From: a bacterium
GTDB taxonomy: Bacteria; Bacillota; Bacilli; Lactobacillales; Streptococcaceae
DNA: 64,000 nt
NCBI GenBank assembly: GCA_905221125.1
Contig: CAJNBY010000003.1
Span: forward strand, 62,001 to 126,000
Reading direction: 5' to 3'
In this document: positions 50,829 through 57,218 of the stretch, in pieces
How positions within the stretch are numbered: position 1 is the stretch's first letter
Layout of the letters: the number at the start of each line of letters is the position of its first letter
Position numbers and translations under genes: made by a program
Notes under the pieces: generated by a model
What the model was told of the DNA's origin: nothing
The model's input: the letters and a program-made list of their open reading frames with translations, nothing else
Database searches by the model: none

Positions 50829-50858
50829 AAAAGTTGAGAATCTTTTCTCAACTTTTTT
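50827..50858. terminator. Bidirectional terminator between hemolysin III and pdxT
   Basis: AAAAAAGTTGAGAA-TCTT-TTCTCAACTTTTTT. Confidence 0.92.
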
Positions 50859-51429
50859 CTTTACACATATTGATAAAATACTGGTGTATGCGAACATCAT
50901 CAGTCAATTCAGGATGAAAAGAGGTTACCAGCATATTTTTTTCTTGGGCTGCAACAATTTGATCGTCAACTCTTGCTAGAATTTCGACACCCTCTCCAAC
51001 ACTACTAATAATCGGACCACGGATAAAGGTCATTGGAATCTGACCAACTCCCTTACATTCTGCTTCTGTGTAGAAACTTCCTAGTTGGCGTCCGTAGGCA
51101 TTTCGCTCGACCACCATATCCATAGTTCCTAGATGACTTTCTTCTTGAGAAGTGATTTCCTTAGCCAGCAAAATTAAGCCCGCGCAGGTTCCAAAAACTG
51201 GAAGTCCAGAGAGAATGGCTTCTCGAATAGGAATCAGCATGTCCTGGTCTCGTAAGAGCTTGCCCATGGTTGTAGACTCCCCACCAGGTAATATTAAACC
51301 CGATAAATCACTCTGATATTGCTGCCAATCCTCTAGATTTCTGATTTCGACACTAGTGACACCTAATTTATCTAGTACTTTTTCATGTTCTGCAAAGGCA
51401 CCTTGCAAGGCCAATATTCCAATTTTCAT
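50848..51429 (-). CDS. pdxT: Pyridoxal 5'-phosphate synthase glutaminase subunit
   Basis: 193 aa. Class I glutaminase triad: Cys in [12 protein letters not shown], His/Glu in [17 protein letters not shown] oxyanion region. Delivers ammonia to PdxS. Begins one base after the pdxS stop. Confidence 0.96.
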
Positions 51430-52305
51430 CTATTTTCCTCGCTCAGCCATGAGAATTTGGATTTCATTTTCATTGATACCAACCATGGCTTCCCCTAAAT
51501 CTTCAGAGATTTGAGCTAGGATTTGAGGATTACGGAAGTTAGTAACAGCCTTAACAATGGCACTTGCTCGTTTAACAGGATCACCTGACTTAAAAATACC
51601 TGAACCGACAAAGACACCCTCTGCCCCTAATTGCATCATCAGTGCAGCATCTGCTGGCGTTGCAACACCTCCAGCAGCAAAGTTTACAACTGGCAATTTC
51701 CCATGTTCATGGACGTATTGAACCAATTCTACAGGGACTTGCAATTCCTTAGCAGCAACATAAAGTTCGTCCTCACGTAGATTTTGAATGCGGCGAATTT
51801 CCTGATTCATCATACGCATATGACGAACAGCTTGAACAATATCTCCTGTACCTGGTTCTCCTTTGGTACGAATCATGGAAGCACCCTCAGCGATACGGCG
51901 CAAAGCTTCACCCAAATCCTTAGCACCACAGACAAAAGGAACTTGGAATTCTTTCTTGTCCACATGGAAACGGTCGTCAGCTGGCGATAGAACTTCACTC
52001 TCATCAATATAGTCAATCTCAATAGCCTCTAAAATCTGAGCTTCAACAAAATGCCCGATTCTGACCTTGGCCATTACTGGAATACTAACCGCTTCTTGGA
52101 TTTCCTTAATCATCTTTGGATCACTCATGCGGGAAACCCCTCCAGCCGCACGAATATCAGCCGGAATTCGTTCCAAGGCCATAACAGCTGCCGCACCAGC
52201 AGCTTCTGCGATACGGGCCTGTTCTGGATTCTGAACATCCATAATTACACCGCCTTTGAGCATCTGTGCCAAGTTTTTATTTAGTTCATAACGATTTTCA
52301 GTCAT
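51430..52305 (-). CDS. pdxS: Pyridoxal 5'-phosphate synthase subunit
   Basis: 291 aa from ATG 52305 ([19 protein letters not shown]), the normal PdxS length; 12 more codons are open upstream. TIM barrel with Schiff-base lysines in VMAKVRIGH and in RTKGEPGTG. Makes PLP from ribose 5-phosphate, glyceraldehyde 3-phosphate and ammonia. Two-gene operon pdxST. No divergent pdxR is seen here. Confidence 0.96.
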
Positions 52306-52407
52306 TTCTTTTTCCTCATCATTTGTATTGGTAGCTACCATTTCATTTTAAGTCAGATTAGAAGGAATCACAAGATAAAAAAAACATAATTGTGTGGGTA
52401 CAGATTG

Positions 52408-52607: not shown

Positions 52608-53987
52608 TTATTTTTCAGCTGTAAGAGCAGCCATTGTGATGTAGTTGTATGGTTTGTTGAAGTGTGGCAAGAAGAAGAGGTCTGTCAAGGCCAATTTATC
52701 AATTGTCACATGCTCTTGGATAGCAAGTGAGAACATATGAATTCCCATGCTAATTGCAATATCATGTGAAACCATTTGAGCCCCAAGAATTTCACGGCTA
52801 TCTTTGTCAAAGACAATCTTGATTGCTACTTCATGGTTGTCATGTTTCATGAATTCTGGTTTTTGAAGATCGTTAAAGCCTGTTTCAGTTGCATTGTAAC
52901 CAGCAGCTTTGGCTTTTTCAAGAGTCAAACCAGTTGAAACCATGTGAAGACCGTAGATAGAGATACCGTTTGAACCTTGCACACCGATTCCTTCCAATTC
53001 ATGTCCACAAGCGTTGTAGGCACCAACGATACCAGTACGAACTGCATTTGAAGCAAGGGCGATGTAACTTGTGTCTTTACGAGCGTTGTCATAAACAGTC
53101 GCACAGTCACCAACGGCAAATACACCAGGAAGTGAAGTTTCTTGTTTCTTGTCTACAAGGAAGGCACCGTTACGGAAGAGTTCAATCTTACCATCAGCAA
53201 GGGCTGTATTTGGACGGAAACCAACTGCAAGGATAACCATGTCCACATCAAAGCTTTCTTTGTCAGTAATCAAGCGTTCAACTTTACCGTCACCTTCAAT
53301 TGCTTTAACAGTTTGACCAAGAGCCAAGCGGATATTGTGGTCTTCCAAGTTCTTCGCCATCATTTGTGTGAAGTCTTTATCATAGTAACCGTTCAAGACA
53401 GTATCAACGATATCAACAAGGACAACTTCTTTTCCAAGACGCTCAAAGGCTTCAGCAAGTTCAACACCGATATAACCACCACCAACAACAGCGATGCGGT
53501 CAAGATGTTTGCTCTTGTCAGCAAGTTTATTGATAACTTCTTCAGCGTTTTGGTACAATTTCACGAATTGTACGTTTTCAAGAATTGCTTTAAATTCGCG
53601 GTTTCCTTTAACAATTTCAACACCTTCGATTGGTGGCAAGATTGGTGTAGAACCTGTAGCGAAAATCAATTTTTCGTATGATTCTTTGTGTTCTTTTCCT
53701 TCAACTTCGGCTGTAACTACTTTGTTATCATAGTCGATTGAAAGAACTGGCGAGTTCATGTAAACCTTAGCGCCTTTAGCTTCCAATTTTTCTTTATCAG
53801 AATAGAACAAGCCTTCAGCACCGTCAATTTGTTCACCAATCCAAAGAGCCATTCCACAACCTAGGAAAGAGATGTTAGAGTTTTGGTCGAATACAACGAT
53901 TTCGTTCTCATTTCCAAAATTATCCAACATCGTATTAATACATGCTGTACCAGCGTGGTTAGCACCGACTACAACGATCTTACTCAT
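52608..53987 (-). CDS. nox: NADH oxidase, water-forming
   Basis: 459 aa flavoprotein disulfide reductase. Redox-active Cys44 in [13 protein letters not shown] motif [12 protein letters not shown] at the N-terminus, NAD motif [14 protein letters not shown], and C-terminal dimer domain. Reduces O2 to 2 H2O with NADH, regenerating NAD+ in aerobic fermentation. Promoter has a perfect cre site. Confidence 0.97.
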
Positions 53988-54024: not shown

Positions 54025-54053
54025 AGTATAACATTTACTGTTAGCGTTTACAA
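54025..54053 (-). promoter_or_regulatory. nox promoter with perfect cre site
   Basis: Minus strand TTGTAA (54048-54053), 17-bp spacer, TATACT (54025-54030). TGTAAACGCTAACA (54039-54052) matches the cre consensus at every position and overlaps the -35 box. Confidence 0.85.
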
Positions 54054-54175: not shown

Positions 54176-54204
54176 TTGTGAAAACGCTGACTTTATGGTA
54201 TGCT
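54176..54204 (+). promoter_or_regulatory. apbE operon promoter with cre-like site
   Basis: TTGTGA (54176-54181), 17 bp, TATGCT (54199-54204). TGAAAACGCTGACT (54179-54192) fits the core cre consensus and overlaps the -35. The 306-bp nox-apbE gap holds only these regulatory signals. Confidence 0.65.
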
Positions 54205-54293: not shown

Positions 54294-55217
54294 TTGCCTC
54301 TTAGTTCACATTCTGAACGCCTAATGGGAACCACTATCACTATTTCATTAGTGGATGAGCGAGCCGATAGCTTGCTTCAAAAATCCTTTGATTTACTCAA
54401 AGAGCTCGAATACCGCTTCAATGCCAATAGTCAAGAATCTGAGTTGATGGAAATCAATCATCAAGCTGGAATAACTTCAGTCAAGGTTCATCCAGACCTG
54501 TTTGAACTGATTTCACTTGGTTTAGAGCATAGCCTAGCGCCCTCTAGCCACCTCAATATCAGCATTGGTCCCTTGATTCAAACCTGGCGTATCGGTTTTT
54601 CAGATGCCAAAGTTGCCCAACCTCAAGAAATCGAATCGGTCCTCCCTTTAATCAATCCTCATTATATCGAGTTAAATTCTTATACTTCTACTGTATTTCT
54701 AAAACAGAAAGGAATGAAGATAGACCTAGGTTGTTTAGCCAAGGGTTATAGTGCGGATAAGGTTGCCCAATTTCTGAGAGAAGAGGGAGTGACTTCTGCC
54801 TTGATCAATCTAGGAGGAAATATCCTGACCATTGGAAAAAATCAGGCAAGAGATAATCAACCTTGGCAAATCGGGATTCAAGACCCAGCCAATCCGAGGG
54901 GCAATCACTTAATGACCATTCCTGTTGTCAATAAATCTGTCGTGACTTCAGGTATTTATGAGCGTCACCTGACAGTCGATGGAAAAGATTACCATCACAT
55001 TTTTGACAGCCAAACAGGATATCCTGTTGAAACGGAACTTGCTAGTCTGACAATCATCTCTGATAAATCAGTCGATGGCGAAATCTGGACAACTCGACTC
55101 TTTGGAGAAAGACCTGCTTCTATCCTCTGGCAAGTCGAAAGTTTGGAGGGAATCGAAGCGATTCTGATCGATAAGGAAGGTCACCTAAGCTGTTCTTCAG
55201 GAGTTCCTACTCTATAG
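54294..55217 (+). CDS. apbE: FAD:protein FMN transferase (ApbE family)
   Basis: 307 aa with a probable TTG start at 54294 (AAAGGAG 8 bp upstream); ATG 54324 is the alternative. Motifs: DLGCLAKGYSADKVAQFL, ALINLGGNI, VTSGIYERHL and HIFDSQTGYPV, the metal- and FAD-binding set. No signal peptide or lipobox, so it should work in the cytoplasm, unlike classical secreted ApbE. It attaches FMN covalently to Ser/Thr in DxxSGA(T/S) motifs. Its likely target is encoded two genes downstream (tail of 55901-57145). Confidence 0.9.
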   Translation: MPLSSHSERLMGTTITISLVDERADSLLQKSFDLLKELEYRFNANSQESELMEINHQAGITSVKVHPDLFELISLGLEHSLAPSSHLNISIGPLIQTWRIGFSDAKVAQPQEIESVLPLINPHYIELNSYTSTVFLKQKGMKIDLGCLAKGYSADKVAQFLREEGVTSALINLGGNILTIGKNQARDNQPWQIGIQDPANPRGNHLMTIPVVNKSVVTSGIYERHLTVDGKDYHHIFDSQTGYPVETELASLTIISDKSVDGEIWTTRLFGERPASILWQVESLEGIEAILIDKEGHLSCSSGVPTL

Positions 55218-55276
55218 AAATAACTGTTTCAATGGAGTTTTAAAATCGTATTATGTAAAAAGAGAAAGGAAATCTC

Positions 55277-55882
55277 ATGTTAAAACTTATTGCTATTGTT
55301 GGAACAAATTCAAAACGTTCTACAAACCGTCAATTGCTTCAATACATGCAAAAACACTTTGCTGACAAAGCTGAAATTGAACTTGTTGAAATCAAGGACA
55401 TTCCTGTCTTTAACAAGCCAGCTGACAAGCAAGTACCTGCTGAAATCTTAGAAATTGCTGCTAAAATTGAAGAGGCTGATGGTGTTATTATCGGTACTCC
55501 TGAATATGATCACTCTATTCCAGCTGTTTTGATGAGCGCTCTTGCTTGGTTGTCATATGGTATTTACCCACTTTTGAACAAATCAATCATGATTACAGGT
55601 GCTTCTTACGGTACACTTGGTTCATCACGCGCCCAATTACAACTTCGCCAAATCTTAAACGCACCAGAAATCAAAGCAAGTGTCCTTCCAGATGAATTCT
55701 TGCTTTCACACTCTCTTCAAGCCTTTAACCCAAGTGGCGACTTGGTTGACCTTGATGTTATTAAAAAATTGGATGCCACTTTTGACGACTTCCGTATCTT
55801 TGTAAAAATTACAGAAAAATTGCGCAACGCACAAGAACTACTTCGCAAAGATGCTGAAGACTTTGACTGGGAAAATTTGTAA
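55277..55882 (+). CDS. NADPH-dependent FMN reductase
   Basis: 201 aa flavodoxin-like fold: phosphate-binding loop VGTNSKRSTNRQLL, and GVIIGTPEYDHSIPAVLM plus MITGASYGTLGSSRAQ around the flavin. Reduces flavin with NAD(P)H. Second gene of the operon, 18 bp before a longer paralogue. Confidence 0.9.
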   Translation: MLKLIAIVGTNSKRSTNRQLLQYMQKHFADKAEIELVEIKDIPVFNKPADKQVPAEILEIAAKIEEADGVIIGTPEYDHSIPAVLMSALAWLSYGIYPLLNKSIMITGASYGTLGSSRAQLQLRQILNAPEIKASVLPDEFLLSHSLQAFNPSGDLVDLDVIKKLDATFDDFRIFVKITEKLRNAQELLRKDAEDFDWENL

Positions 55883-55900
55883 GATAGGAGACCAAAAAGA

Positions 55901-57145
55901 ATGAAATTTGTTGGACTTGTAGGATCAAACTACGATCAATCATATAACCGTAAACTCTTGGAATTTATCCGCCGTCACTTCAAACTCAAATTTGAATTAG
56001 AAGTTCTTGAAATTGACGAAGTTCCAATGTTTAACCAAGACGAAAAATGGGACGAAAGTTTCCAATTGCGTCTCTTGTATAACAGAATTACACGTGCTGA
56101 TGGTGTCATTATCGCTACCCCTGAGCACAACCACACAATCTCAGCTTCTCTTAAATCTGTTCTTGAATGGCTTTCATATGAAGTTCATCCATTTGAAAAC
56201 AAACCAGTCATGATTGTGGGTGCTTCTTACTACGACCAAGGTACTTCTCGTGCCCAAGTTCACCTTCGTAAGATTCTTGACGCTCCAGGTGTCAATGCCT
56301 ATACACTTCCTGGAAACGAATTCCTTCTTGGTAAAGCTAAGGAAGCCTTTGATGTTGATGGGAATATTACAAATGACGGAACAGTTAAATTCCTCGAAAC
56401 TTGCTTGGATAATTTTGTAAAATATGTAGGAGTTGTTTCAAAATTGAAAAAACCAAAACCAATTGAACCAGAAGATTTGGATTGTGGAAGACCAATTGCT
56501 ACCACAATCACAGAAGTTGATCCCGATGATCCAGAATGGGTTGAAAAAGTTGCTGAAATTACTGGTGCGGTTTCAGGTGATACCTATGTCAAACTAGATC
56601 ATGGTATCTTAACTGTTAACCAAATCGATATGTTCTTGAAAGCAATGCCATTTGAGTTGACCTATGCAGATGATAACAACCAATTCTTATACTACAATAA
56701 TGTTCACCAAGATCCAAATACAATGTTTGCTAAACGTGTACCATCTCAATCTGGTAACCGTCTCTCAACTGTCCATAACTCACTTCCCGGTGGACGTATG
56801 AAAAATGTTGAGTGGGTTGTCGGTGTACTACGTAATGGTGATCAAGAATATGTTCGTACAATCGTTCCTGGATCTCCTGCAGGGGTTATCAATACTCACA
56901 ACTATCAAGCTATGTACTATCCTGATGGATCATACGCTGGTATCAACGAAATAGTCTTCAACTTCCAACCATGGCTTGATTGGTACCTCAATTCTACTGG
57001 TCAACGTCTAGTTGGTGGAAATGCTGCAGCATCTGCTGGCGGACATGGTCACGGCGATGCAGATGCTACATCTGGAGCTTCTGATGCAGGTGATGCTGGA
57101 GGCCACGGTGGTGGTGCAGACGCTACATCTGGCGCAAGCAACTAA
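55901..57145 (+). CDS. FMN reductase-PAS protein with tandem flavinylation motifs
   Basis: 414 aa. Residues 1-180: NADPH-dependent FMN reductase paralogous to the previous gene (GVIIATPEHNHTISASLK, GASYYDQGTSRAQVH). About 200-365: PAS-like domain of the DUF438 kind (ILTVNQIDMFLKAMPFELTYADDNN). About 370-414: Gly/Ala/His/Asp-rich tail holding two copies of DATSGAS, a fit to the ApbE target DxxSGA(T/S). Inferred: a soluble NADPH oxidoreductase whose mobile tail carries two covalent FMN groups added by the neighbouring ApbE. Confidence 0.85.
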   Translation: MKFVGLVGSNYDQSYNRKLLEFIRRHFKLKFELEVLEIDEVPMFNQDEKWDESFQLRLLYNRITRADGVIIATPEHNHTISASLKSVLEWLSYEVHPFENKPVMIVGASYYDQGTSRAQVHLRKILDAPGVNAYTLPGNEFLLGKAKEAFDVDGNITNDGTVKFLETCLDNFVKYVGVVSKLKKPKPIEPEDLDCGRPIATTITEVDPDDPEWVEKVAEITGAVSGDTYVKLDHGILTVNQIDMFLKAMPFELTYADDNNQFLYYNNVHQDPNTMFAKRVPSQSGNRLSTVHNSLPGGRMKNVEWVVGVLRNGDQEYVRTIVPGSPAGVINTHNYQAMYYPDGSYAGINEIVFNFQPWLDWYLNSTGQRLVGGNAAASAGGHGHGDADATSGASDAGDAGGHGGGADATSGASN

Positions 57146-57153
57146 TAACAGTT

Positions 57154-57218
57154 TTAGGAACCATTTTGGTTCCTTTTTTAGGAAAAAAGACTAGCAGACA
57201 CAAACTGCTAGTCTTTTG
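57154..57218 (+). terminator. Two terminators after the apbE operon
   Basis: AGGAACC-ATTTT-GGTTCCTTTTTT (57157-57180) and AAGACTAGCAG-ACACAAA-CTGCTAGTCTTTT (about 57187-57218); the second is symmetrical. Confidence 0.88.

Follow-up and report, generated by a model that had tools for sequence, protein, structure and literature searches.

A predicted tethered-flavin reductase encoded beside apbE in a Streptococcus near the mitis group

The apbE-RED1-RED2 cluster and its motif tail

Our analysis concerns a cluster of three genes, apbE, RED1 and RED2, in a 64-kb stretch of contig CAJNBY010000003.1 (the whole stretch analysed, hereafter the window), which is assigned to a Streptococcus near the mitis group. 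In the nearest genome (G001), RED2 shows 99% identity, and S. oralis, S. mitis and S. infantis are among its named close relatives. The first gene codes for an FAD:protein FMN transferase (FAD, flavin adenine dinucleotide; FMN, flavin mononucleotide), and the other two for adjacent, paralogous FMN reductases, of which RED2 ends in a disordered tail with two copies of the motif DATSGAS (Table 1). An earlier note on this DNA had described apbE without a signal peptide followed by two paralogous reductases, and the profile matches (PF02424 once, PF03358 twice) and the lack of a hydrophobic N-terminus agree with that description. AAAGGAG lies 5' of the TTG start of apbE, the encoded protein begins with MPLSSHSERLMGTTITISLVDER, and the best 15-residue Kyte-Doolittle mean within its first 60 residues is 0.65. 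Judged by this N-terminus, the ApbE of the cluster has no visible signal peptide and is hence predicted to be cytoplasmic, in the same compartment as RED2.

The FMN_red domain (PF03358) of RED2 covers residues 1-147 and starts directly at residue 1, which, together with the N-terminus of ApbE, bears out the proposal that a cytoplasmic ApbE has a soluble reductase as its probable target. The PAS-like domain and the Gly/Ala/His-rich end with two motifs described earlier were likewise found, as a PAS_10 domain (PF13596), whose Foldseek match 2qkp is the C-terminal domain of S. mutans SMU_1151c, and as a tail whose flexibility agrees with the AlphaFold model of RED2: the mean predicted local distance difference test score (pLDDT) is 81.5 and the predicted template modelling score 0.68, and pLDDT falls below 50 over the tail. 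A profile search with E values up to 1 listed no match to FMN_bind or FAD_binding_2 in RED2.

Table 1. Features of the cluster and of its surroundings
Feature	Position	Strand	Basis or remark
apbE, FAD:protein FMN transferase	54294-55217	+	307 residues, TTG start, PF02424 E 3.9e-77
RED1, stand-alone FMN_red, FRedA-like	55277-55882	+	201 residues, PF03358 E 4.3e-34
RED2, FMN_red + PAS_10 + motif tail, presumed ApbE target	55901-57145	+	414 residues
PAS_10 domain of RED2, residues 242-355	56624-56965	+	PF13596 E 7.8e-21; Foldseek match 2qkp
Disordered Gly/Ala/His-rich tail of RED2, residues 373-414	57017-57142	+	pLDDT < 50
Motif 1 DATSGAS, residues 388-394, presumed acceptor Ser394	57062-57082	+	D..[ST]GA[ST] match
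Motif 2 DATSGAS, residues 407-413, presumed acceptor Ser413	57119-57139	+	D..[ST]GA[ST] match
Two terminator-like hairpins 3' of RED2	57156-57174, 57185-57217	+	scan
nox, H2O-forming NADH oxidase, divergent neighbour (context)	52608-53987	-	NF046103 761.7 bits, cut-off 600
Perfect match to the catabolite-responsive element (cre), TGTAAACGCTAACA	54039-54052	-	overlaps nox promoter-like site 54053-54025
Second cre-like site, one mismatch, upstream of apbE	54179-54192	+	cre pattern

The two motifs are not the product of chance. When the 39-residue tail of RED2 was shuffled 200,000 times, two motifs arose 4 times. The codons of the two copies differ at 4 of 7 positions, the acceptor serine being TCT in one and AGC in the other, while the peptide is the same; therefore, conservation acts at the level of the protein. 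Conservation was followed in a close set of 80 loci and in a diverse set of 60 loci from genomes of the same order as the window. RED1 stands beside RED2 in all 80 close and all 60 diverse loci, and by analogy with characterized relatives it is very probably the partner subunit of RED2, a role that the earlier note had missed.

The motif form recognized by ApbE is given as D-x-x-[S/T]-G-A-[S/T] (PMC12052999), and D..[ST]GA[ST] was taken here as the strict motif. With glycine or serine allowed at the fifth position (D..[ST][GS]A[ST]), 147 motifs were counted in the 57 parsed diverse tails, compared with 0.9 in composition-matched shuffles and none in the protein bodies. At least two motifs occur in 54 of these 57 tails and three or four in 29; their spacing is variable, mostly 5-13 residues, and the length and make-up of the linkers vary too. 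Tails could not be parsed in 9 of the 69 rows of an alignment (A1), in which Asp388 and Ala393 are kept at 90% or more, and in three diverse loci, of which L170 and L173 carry two strict motifs each and L169 none. Among the best 120 listed homologues of RED2, at least one strict motif is present in 119 and at least two in 104; when the query was a distant one, the strict form was missing from 38 of the 120 homologues listed and the form that admits serine from 6 of 120 (such counts cover the top 120 listed in sets of 1373, 200 and 1488 matches, the distant query leading the third set). The search of homologous tails that the earlier note had called for across Streptococcus thus revealed a motif limited neither to this genus nor to two copies.

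Some tails depart from the strict form. In the diverse set, 47 loci have the strict motif, 12 have D..[ST]SA[ST] alone (L139, L140, L141, L143, L145, L147, L150, L153, L160, L164, L166 and L172) and one (L169) has neither; apbE lies within the fetched flanks of 11 of the 12 loci with the serine form. In the close set, where the count covers 79 of the 80 loci owing to a length filter, the sole locus without the strict form is that of Streptococcus sp. DD10 (L039, P0014), with DATASAS and DATSSAS in its tail and apbE adjacent. P0042 and P0053, both named S. pneumoniae, keep one strict copy next to a second copy reading DATAGAS. Homologues beside apbE without the motif, which the earlier note had set as the observation that would speak against its proposal, were therefore encountered in part: the strict form is absent from 1 of 79 close and 13 of 60 diverse loci, and 13 of these 14 homologues keep D..[ST]SA[ST] copies. 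It follows that either the motif is broader than its textbook form or some tails are unmodified; the tails with the serine form near apbE would be compatible with a possible wider ApbE motif, D-x-x-S-S-A-S.

Association with ApbE and the PAS_10 module

In 79 of the 80 close loci and 45 of the 60 diverse ones, the fetched flanks of the reductase pair contain apbE on the same strand; one further diverse locus has it on the other strand. The remaining 14 diverse loci belong to genomes (seven of Streptococcus and seven others) that all have ApbE elsewhere, as a count of presence revealed; in G330, ApbE sits at the edge of the fetched stretch. Across 335 genomes of the family to which the window belongs, RED2 was present in 236 (E 1e-100 or better; 274 matches minus 38 weaker ones, counted by hand), of which 235 also have ApbE. 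The sole exception, G631, carries a disrupted RED2 with an internal stop and a second piece. ApbE is also present in 83 of the 99 family genomes without fused RED2, and thus the enzyme has other uses. The co-occurrence of RED2 and ApbE gives a Fisher p-value of 1.7e-8, kinship not being corrected for. Among FMN_red pairs without a tail, ApbE is missing in G045, G139 and G196 and present in G157, G210 and G250; in G206 a tail-less pair has ApbE nearby and is followed by a separate FAD_binding_2 protein. RED2 appears to be interrupted or in pieces in several genomes of the genus of the window (G631, G498, G608, G655 and G637), and in G637 its two parts lie far apart on one contig, as if after rearrangement.

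These counts also bear on the view that the tail motifs are low-complexity drift, unmodified in the cell, with ApbE serving another target. The degenerate tail of L039 right beside apbE and the frequency of ApbE in genomes without fused RED2 would suit such drift, which is nevertheless very improbable in view of the excess of motifs over composition-matched shuffles, the identical peptides kept by diverged codons and the modification of related FMN_red proteins in vitro (PMC11334425). Flavinylation of the RED2 tail is, by analogy with these relatives, likely.

The tail appears to belong to a unit that also includes the PAS_10 domain. In two genomes, G010 and G018, probably of Lactobacillus, the FMN_red pair is tail-less (L206 and L207; 178 and 184 residues, 12 and 13 bp apart) and apbE lies two open reading frames past it, while a separate gene elsewhere codes for a PAS_10 protein of 244 and 245 residues, respectively (28.0 and 27.9 kDa), with three motifs (L204 and L205). 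Residues 191-413 of RED2 are 36% identical to L204/L205 in blastp, and PF13596 is found in both. In an alignment of 27 PAS proteins, Asp203, Gly207, Ala208, Asp228, Ala233 and Ser234 are invariant. Among the matches listed, 94 of the 102 PAS proteins shorter than 300 residues bear motifs; the eight others comprise four (178-194 residues) that end before the tail, three chimeras of PAS and transporter (191 residues) and one with a degenerate tail (P0177). The three chimeras (P0234, P0235 and P0237), in which a piece of PAS_10 is joined to a PF01226 transporter domain, probably stem from chimeric contigs.

In proteins named as Streptococcus, Enterococcus, Vagococcus and Companilactobacillus, PAS_10 and the tail are fused to FMN_red. 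A repeated form was revealed in G294, where a protein of 894 residues (L209:2817-5501) contains, besides FMN_red, three PAS_10 domains, with a total of 8 relaxed motifs situated before, between and after them; P0323 and P0358 (712 and 711 residues) resemble it and have 6 and 7 motifs. PAS and motif tail may thus be regarded as one module that is fused to the reductase, repeated three times (in one genome) or made as a separate protein; the earlier note overlooked that the tail is part of it. Such a module is not the sole way of placing the motif next to FMN_red. Proteins L210:2301-4781, L211:4078-6522 and L212:3255-5669, two of them from genomes of the genus of the window, consist of FMN_red, FMN_bind (C-terminal in L211) and FAD_binding_2, with the ApbE motif inside FMN_bind, and are likely to be NADH-dependent reductases of the fumarate or enoate type. 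The common thread of all these forms would be an FMN_red unit accompanied by a module that offers a covalent FMN.

Known relatives and the role of the tail flavin

A close characterized counterpart of the cluster is the FRedA/FRedB reductase of Lactobacillus johnsonii with its partner LjPAS, reported by Valladares et al. in 2015. FRedA/B is an obligate heterodimer that is NADH-dependent and forms H2O2; it uses FMN or FAD with a Michaelis constant of about 20 uM for each, does not use riboflavin, and reduced no quinones detectably in vitro (PMC4500961). The window shares with it the two adjacent paralogous FMN_red genes, also present in all 60 diverse loci, and a homologous PAS_10 module, which is a separate protein in L. 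johnsonii and fused within RED2 in the window; the same authors mention that other lactic acid bacteria have the LjPAS counterpart joined to an FMN reductase (PMC4500961). The PAS masses of G010 and G018 and the 12-bp intergenic gap of G010 are like those of L. johnsonii, and from these features and the domain content both genomes may be L. johnsonii or a near species. L204 and L205 resemble LjPAS, so that their motif tail suggests what LjPAS does. Covalent flavin, flavinylation and ApbE have no match in the text of PMC4500961, and among the listed titles and abstracts of the open-licence literature none was found to connect LjPAS or PAS_10 with flavinylation. The acceptance of FAD implies, by analogy, that a group on the FMN phosphate would be tolerated, as serine-linked FMN needs. 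For EF1227 of E. faecalis, a relative according to PMC4500961, one expression column of PMC2941500 gives a value of 1.06, which is too weak a basis for any conclusion. SMU.1602 does not belong to this family, being a putative aldo/keto reductase in PMC12077213, and the literature matches listed for pneumococcal locus tags contained nothing on the cluster.

LjPAS was treated by Valladares et al. as a regulator. When made in E. coli and pre-incubated with FRedB, it lowered the initial rate from 6.8 to 2.6 umol/min/mg, while the preformed complex was not significantly slowed; its expression is given inconsistently, with anaerobic repression in the abstract and a 3.07-fold drop under high oxygen in the results (PMC4500961). 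PAS domains often act as sensors. Together with this background, the PAS-dependent slowing of complex formation and the oxygen-dependent expression of LjPAS would fit a redox or oxygen sensor that regulates assembly of the heterodimer, the tail flavin being its sensing group and not an electron carrier. We consider this improbable: the outcome of a two-hybrid assay, called unsuited to the question by its authors, was the same with and without LjPAS (PMC4500961), a Pfam scan found no signalling output domain in the PAS proteins covered, and the number of motifs varies freely, unlike that of a sensing cofactor.

An extension such as the tail of RED2 is not novel in itself, contrary to the earlier note, since unstructured C-terminal extensions that carry one to two motifs were described by Huang et al. 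in 2024 for FMN_red proteins encoded near apbE; the architecture of RED2, with its PF03358 domain, nearby apbE and unstructured extension, is a variant of this reported kind. Flavinylation was demonstrated for L. lactis WP_021723379 and L. taiwanensis WP_205872264 and needs the predicted Ser/Thr; the results of that study refer to co-expression with the cognate apbE, and the methods to lysate with Listeria ApbE (PMC11334425). RED2 differs in its PAS_10 domain: 'PAS domain' has no occurrence in PMC11334425, and the passages there on these proteins mention neither a PAS module nor a partner subunit, nor any protein with over two motifs. A cytosolic ApbE with a soluble fumarate reductase as its target was also known already, according to a 2025 review (PMC12052999). 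What appears to be new here is the link of the motif tail to a PAS module, including one that stands alone as an LjPAS-like protein.

In the models of Huang et al. the modified positions lie close to the conserved flavin site, and flavinylation was proposed to secure flavins in established sites (PMC11334425). Applied to RED2, the tail FMN would be the anchored catalytic FMN of an ordinary FMN_red pocket, keeping a weakly bound cofactor in place, with no relay involved. The FMN dissociation constant of FRedA/B, about 2 uM, and the 0.58 FMN per dimer with which it was purified (PMC4500961) agree with such a need, and RED2, with two motifs, could supply exactly one flavin to each of the two heterodimer pockets. 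This explanation is nonetheless rather unlikely, as the 29 diverse tails with three or four motifs and the protein with 8 relaxed ones have more sites than two pockets, and the motifs of G010 and G018 reside on a separate PAS protein.

An ApbE motif on a reductase subunit is also a feature of the hydroxycinnamate reductase HcrAB and of soluble fumarate reductases, which pair an FMN_red partner with a large subunit that starts with FMN_red and bears an ApbE motif, as in L210-L212; these three proteins would be HcrB-like by their domain content, and HcrA has been reported to stabilise HcrB (PMC10295242). Their motif lies in FMN_bind and FAD_binding_2 is present, whereas RED2 has PAS_10 and a disordered tail instead. 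A further comparison is offered by the multi-flavinylated FMN_bind proteins, which are extracytoplasmic. These likewise carry several covalent FMNs per chain (PMC10339131, PMC11334425), arranged in folded domains as beads on a string (PMC11334425), unlike the sites of RED2 in an unfolded cytoplasmic tail.

With moderate confidence, we propose that apbE, RED1 and RED2 constitute a self-contained cytoplasmic NADH-oxidising flavoenzyme in which the tail FMN serves as a tethered substrate or relay. RED1 and the FMN_red domain of RED2 would form a heterodimer like FRedA/B that binds FMN and oxidises NADH; its formation, NADH dependence and H2O2 production are proposed by homology only. ApbE would attach FMN via its phosphate to Ser394 and Ser413, as was shown for related FMN_red proteins. 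The tethered FMN would then act as a built-in substrate that swings into the heterodimer, becomes reduced and swings out, and might hand its electrons to O2, yielding H2O2, or to another small acceptor, while PAS_10 may, speculatively, be a dock or gate for the flavin arm. The earlier note had envisaged an outlet to O2, quinone or metal; of these O2 is favoured because the homologous L. johnsonii heterodimer makes H2O2 and shows no quinone reduction (PMC4500961).

Several observations weigh against this proposal. Flavinylation of RED2 is a prediction, as it is, in the literature cited, for its PAS_10-bearing relatives, and so is the ability of the tail to reach the FMN site, which is judged from tail length. 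Free FMN suffices for purified FRedA/B to oxidise NADH when no PAS protein is present, and LjPAS slows the reaction (PMC4500961). The structures nearest to the PAS domain of RED2 are two uncharacterised ones, 2qkp and 3cax; heme as well as flavin PAS domains are among the looser matches. The strict motif is absent near apbE in a minority of tails (L039, 11 of the 12 loci with the serine form, and L169), ApbE is common in family genomes without fused RED2, and the two sites of RED2 suit the two pockets mentioned above. Finally, motif-bearing FMN_red proteins without a Pfam PAS domain stand directly beside apbE in genomes of the family of the window (L239:1423-2394, L246:1297-2049, L248:1030-2043 and L250:1501-2313; 250-337 residues, one to four motifs), so that a motif tail does not always come with PAS; these proteins may be of the type tested by Huang et al.

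A wider form of the proposal, which we advance tentatively, regards PAS_10 and a disordered tail loaded by ApbE with two to eight FMNs as a transferable module of the cytoplasm, at once a swinging-arm carrier of electrons and a tethered substrate for a heterodimeric NADH flavin reductase. Streptococci and enterococci would use it in cis and Lactobacillus, in the form of LjPAS, in trans, with the ApbE motif widened to the D-x-x-S-S-A-S form. If the tethered-substrate proposal holds true, lactic acid bacteria possess a class of soluble redox enzymes with a flavin substrate tethered to the enzyme itself, and an electron-carrying role falls to LjPAS, whose part in the H2O2-forming lactobacillus flavin reductase had lacked an explanation. 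Flavinylation would then also be a cytoplasmic tool, unfolded tails could carry electrons, and the active form may have escaped published assays in which the PAS protein had been produced in the absence of its own ApbE.

The nox neighbour and cre sites

The cluster lies back to back with nox. A pattern taken as the cre consensus has a single perfect match in the window, against a chance mean of 0.07 (6 shuffles also have one), and the 14-mer of the second, imperfect site is also listed in several relatives without a perfect cre site. Among the 77 close loci with nox next to the apbE cluster, 36 contain a perfect cre match and 68 a match with at most one mismatch, compared with about no perfect matches in shuffles. 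Catabolite control of nox and the cluster is therefore plausible where nox is the neighbour, and in this respect the earlier suggestion of a shared cre region stands. It does not extend further: nox adjoins the cluster in 77 of 80 close and only 5 of 60 diverse loci, and such a local neighbourhood does not define the function of the cluster.

The scan for terminator-like sites detected three, where shuffles gave 2.0; by number, the hairpins 3' of RED2 are therefore weak evidence. Just beyond nox, at 50848-52341 on the reverse strand, two genes resemble by eye pdxT and pdxS of vitamin B6 synthesis.

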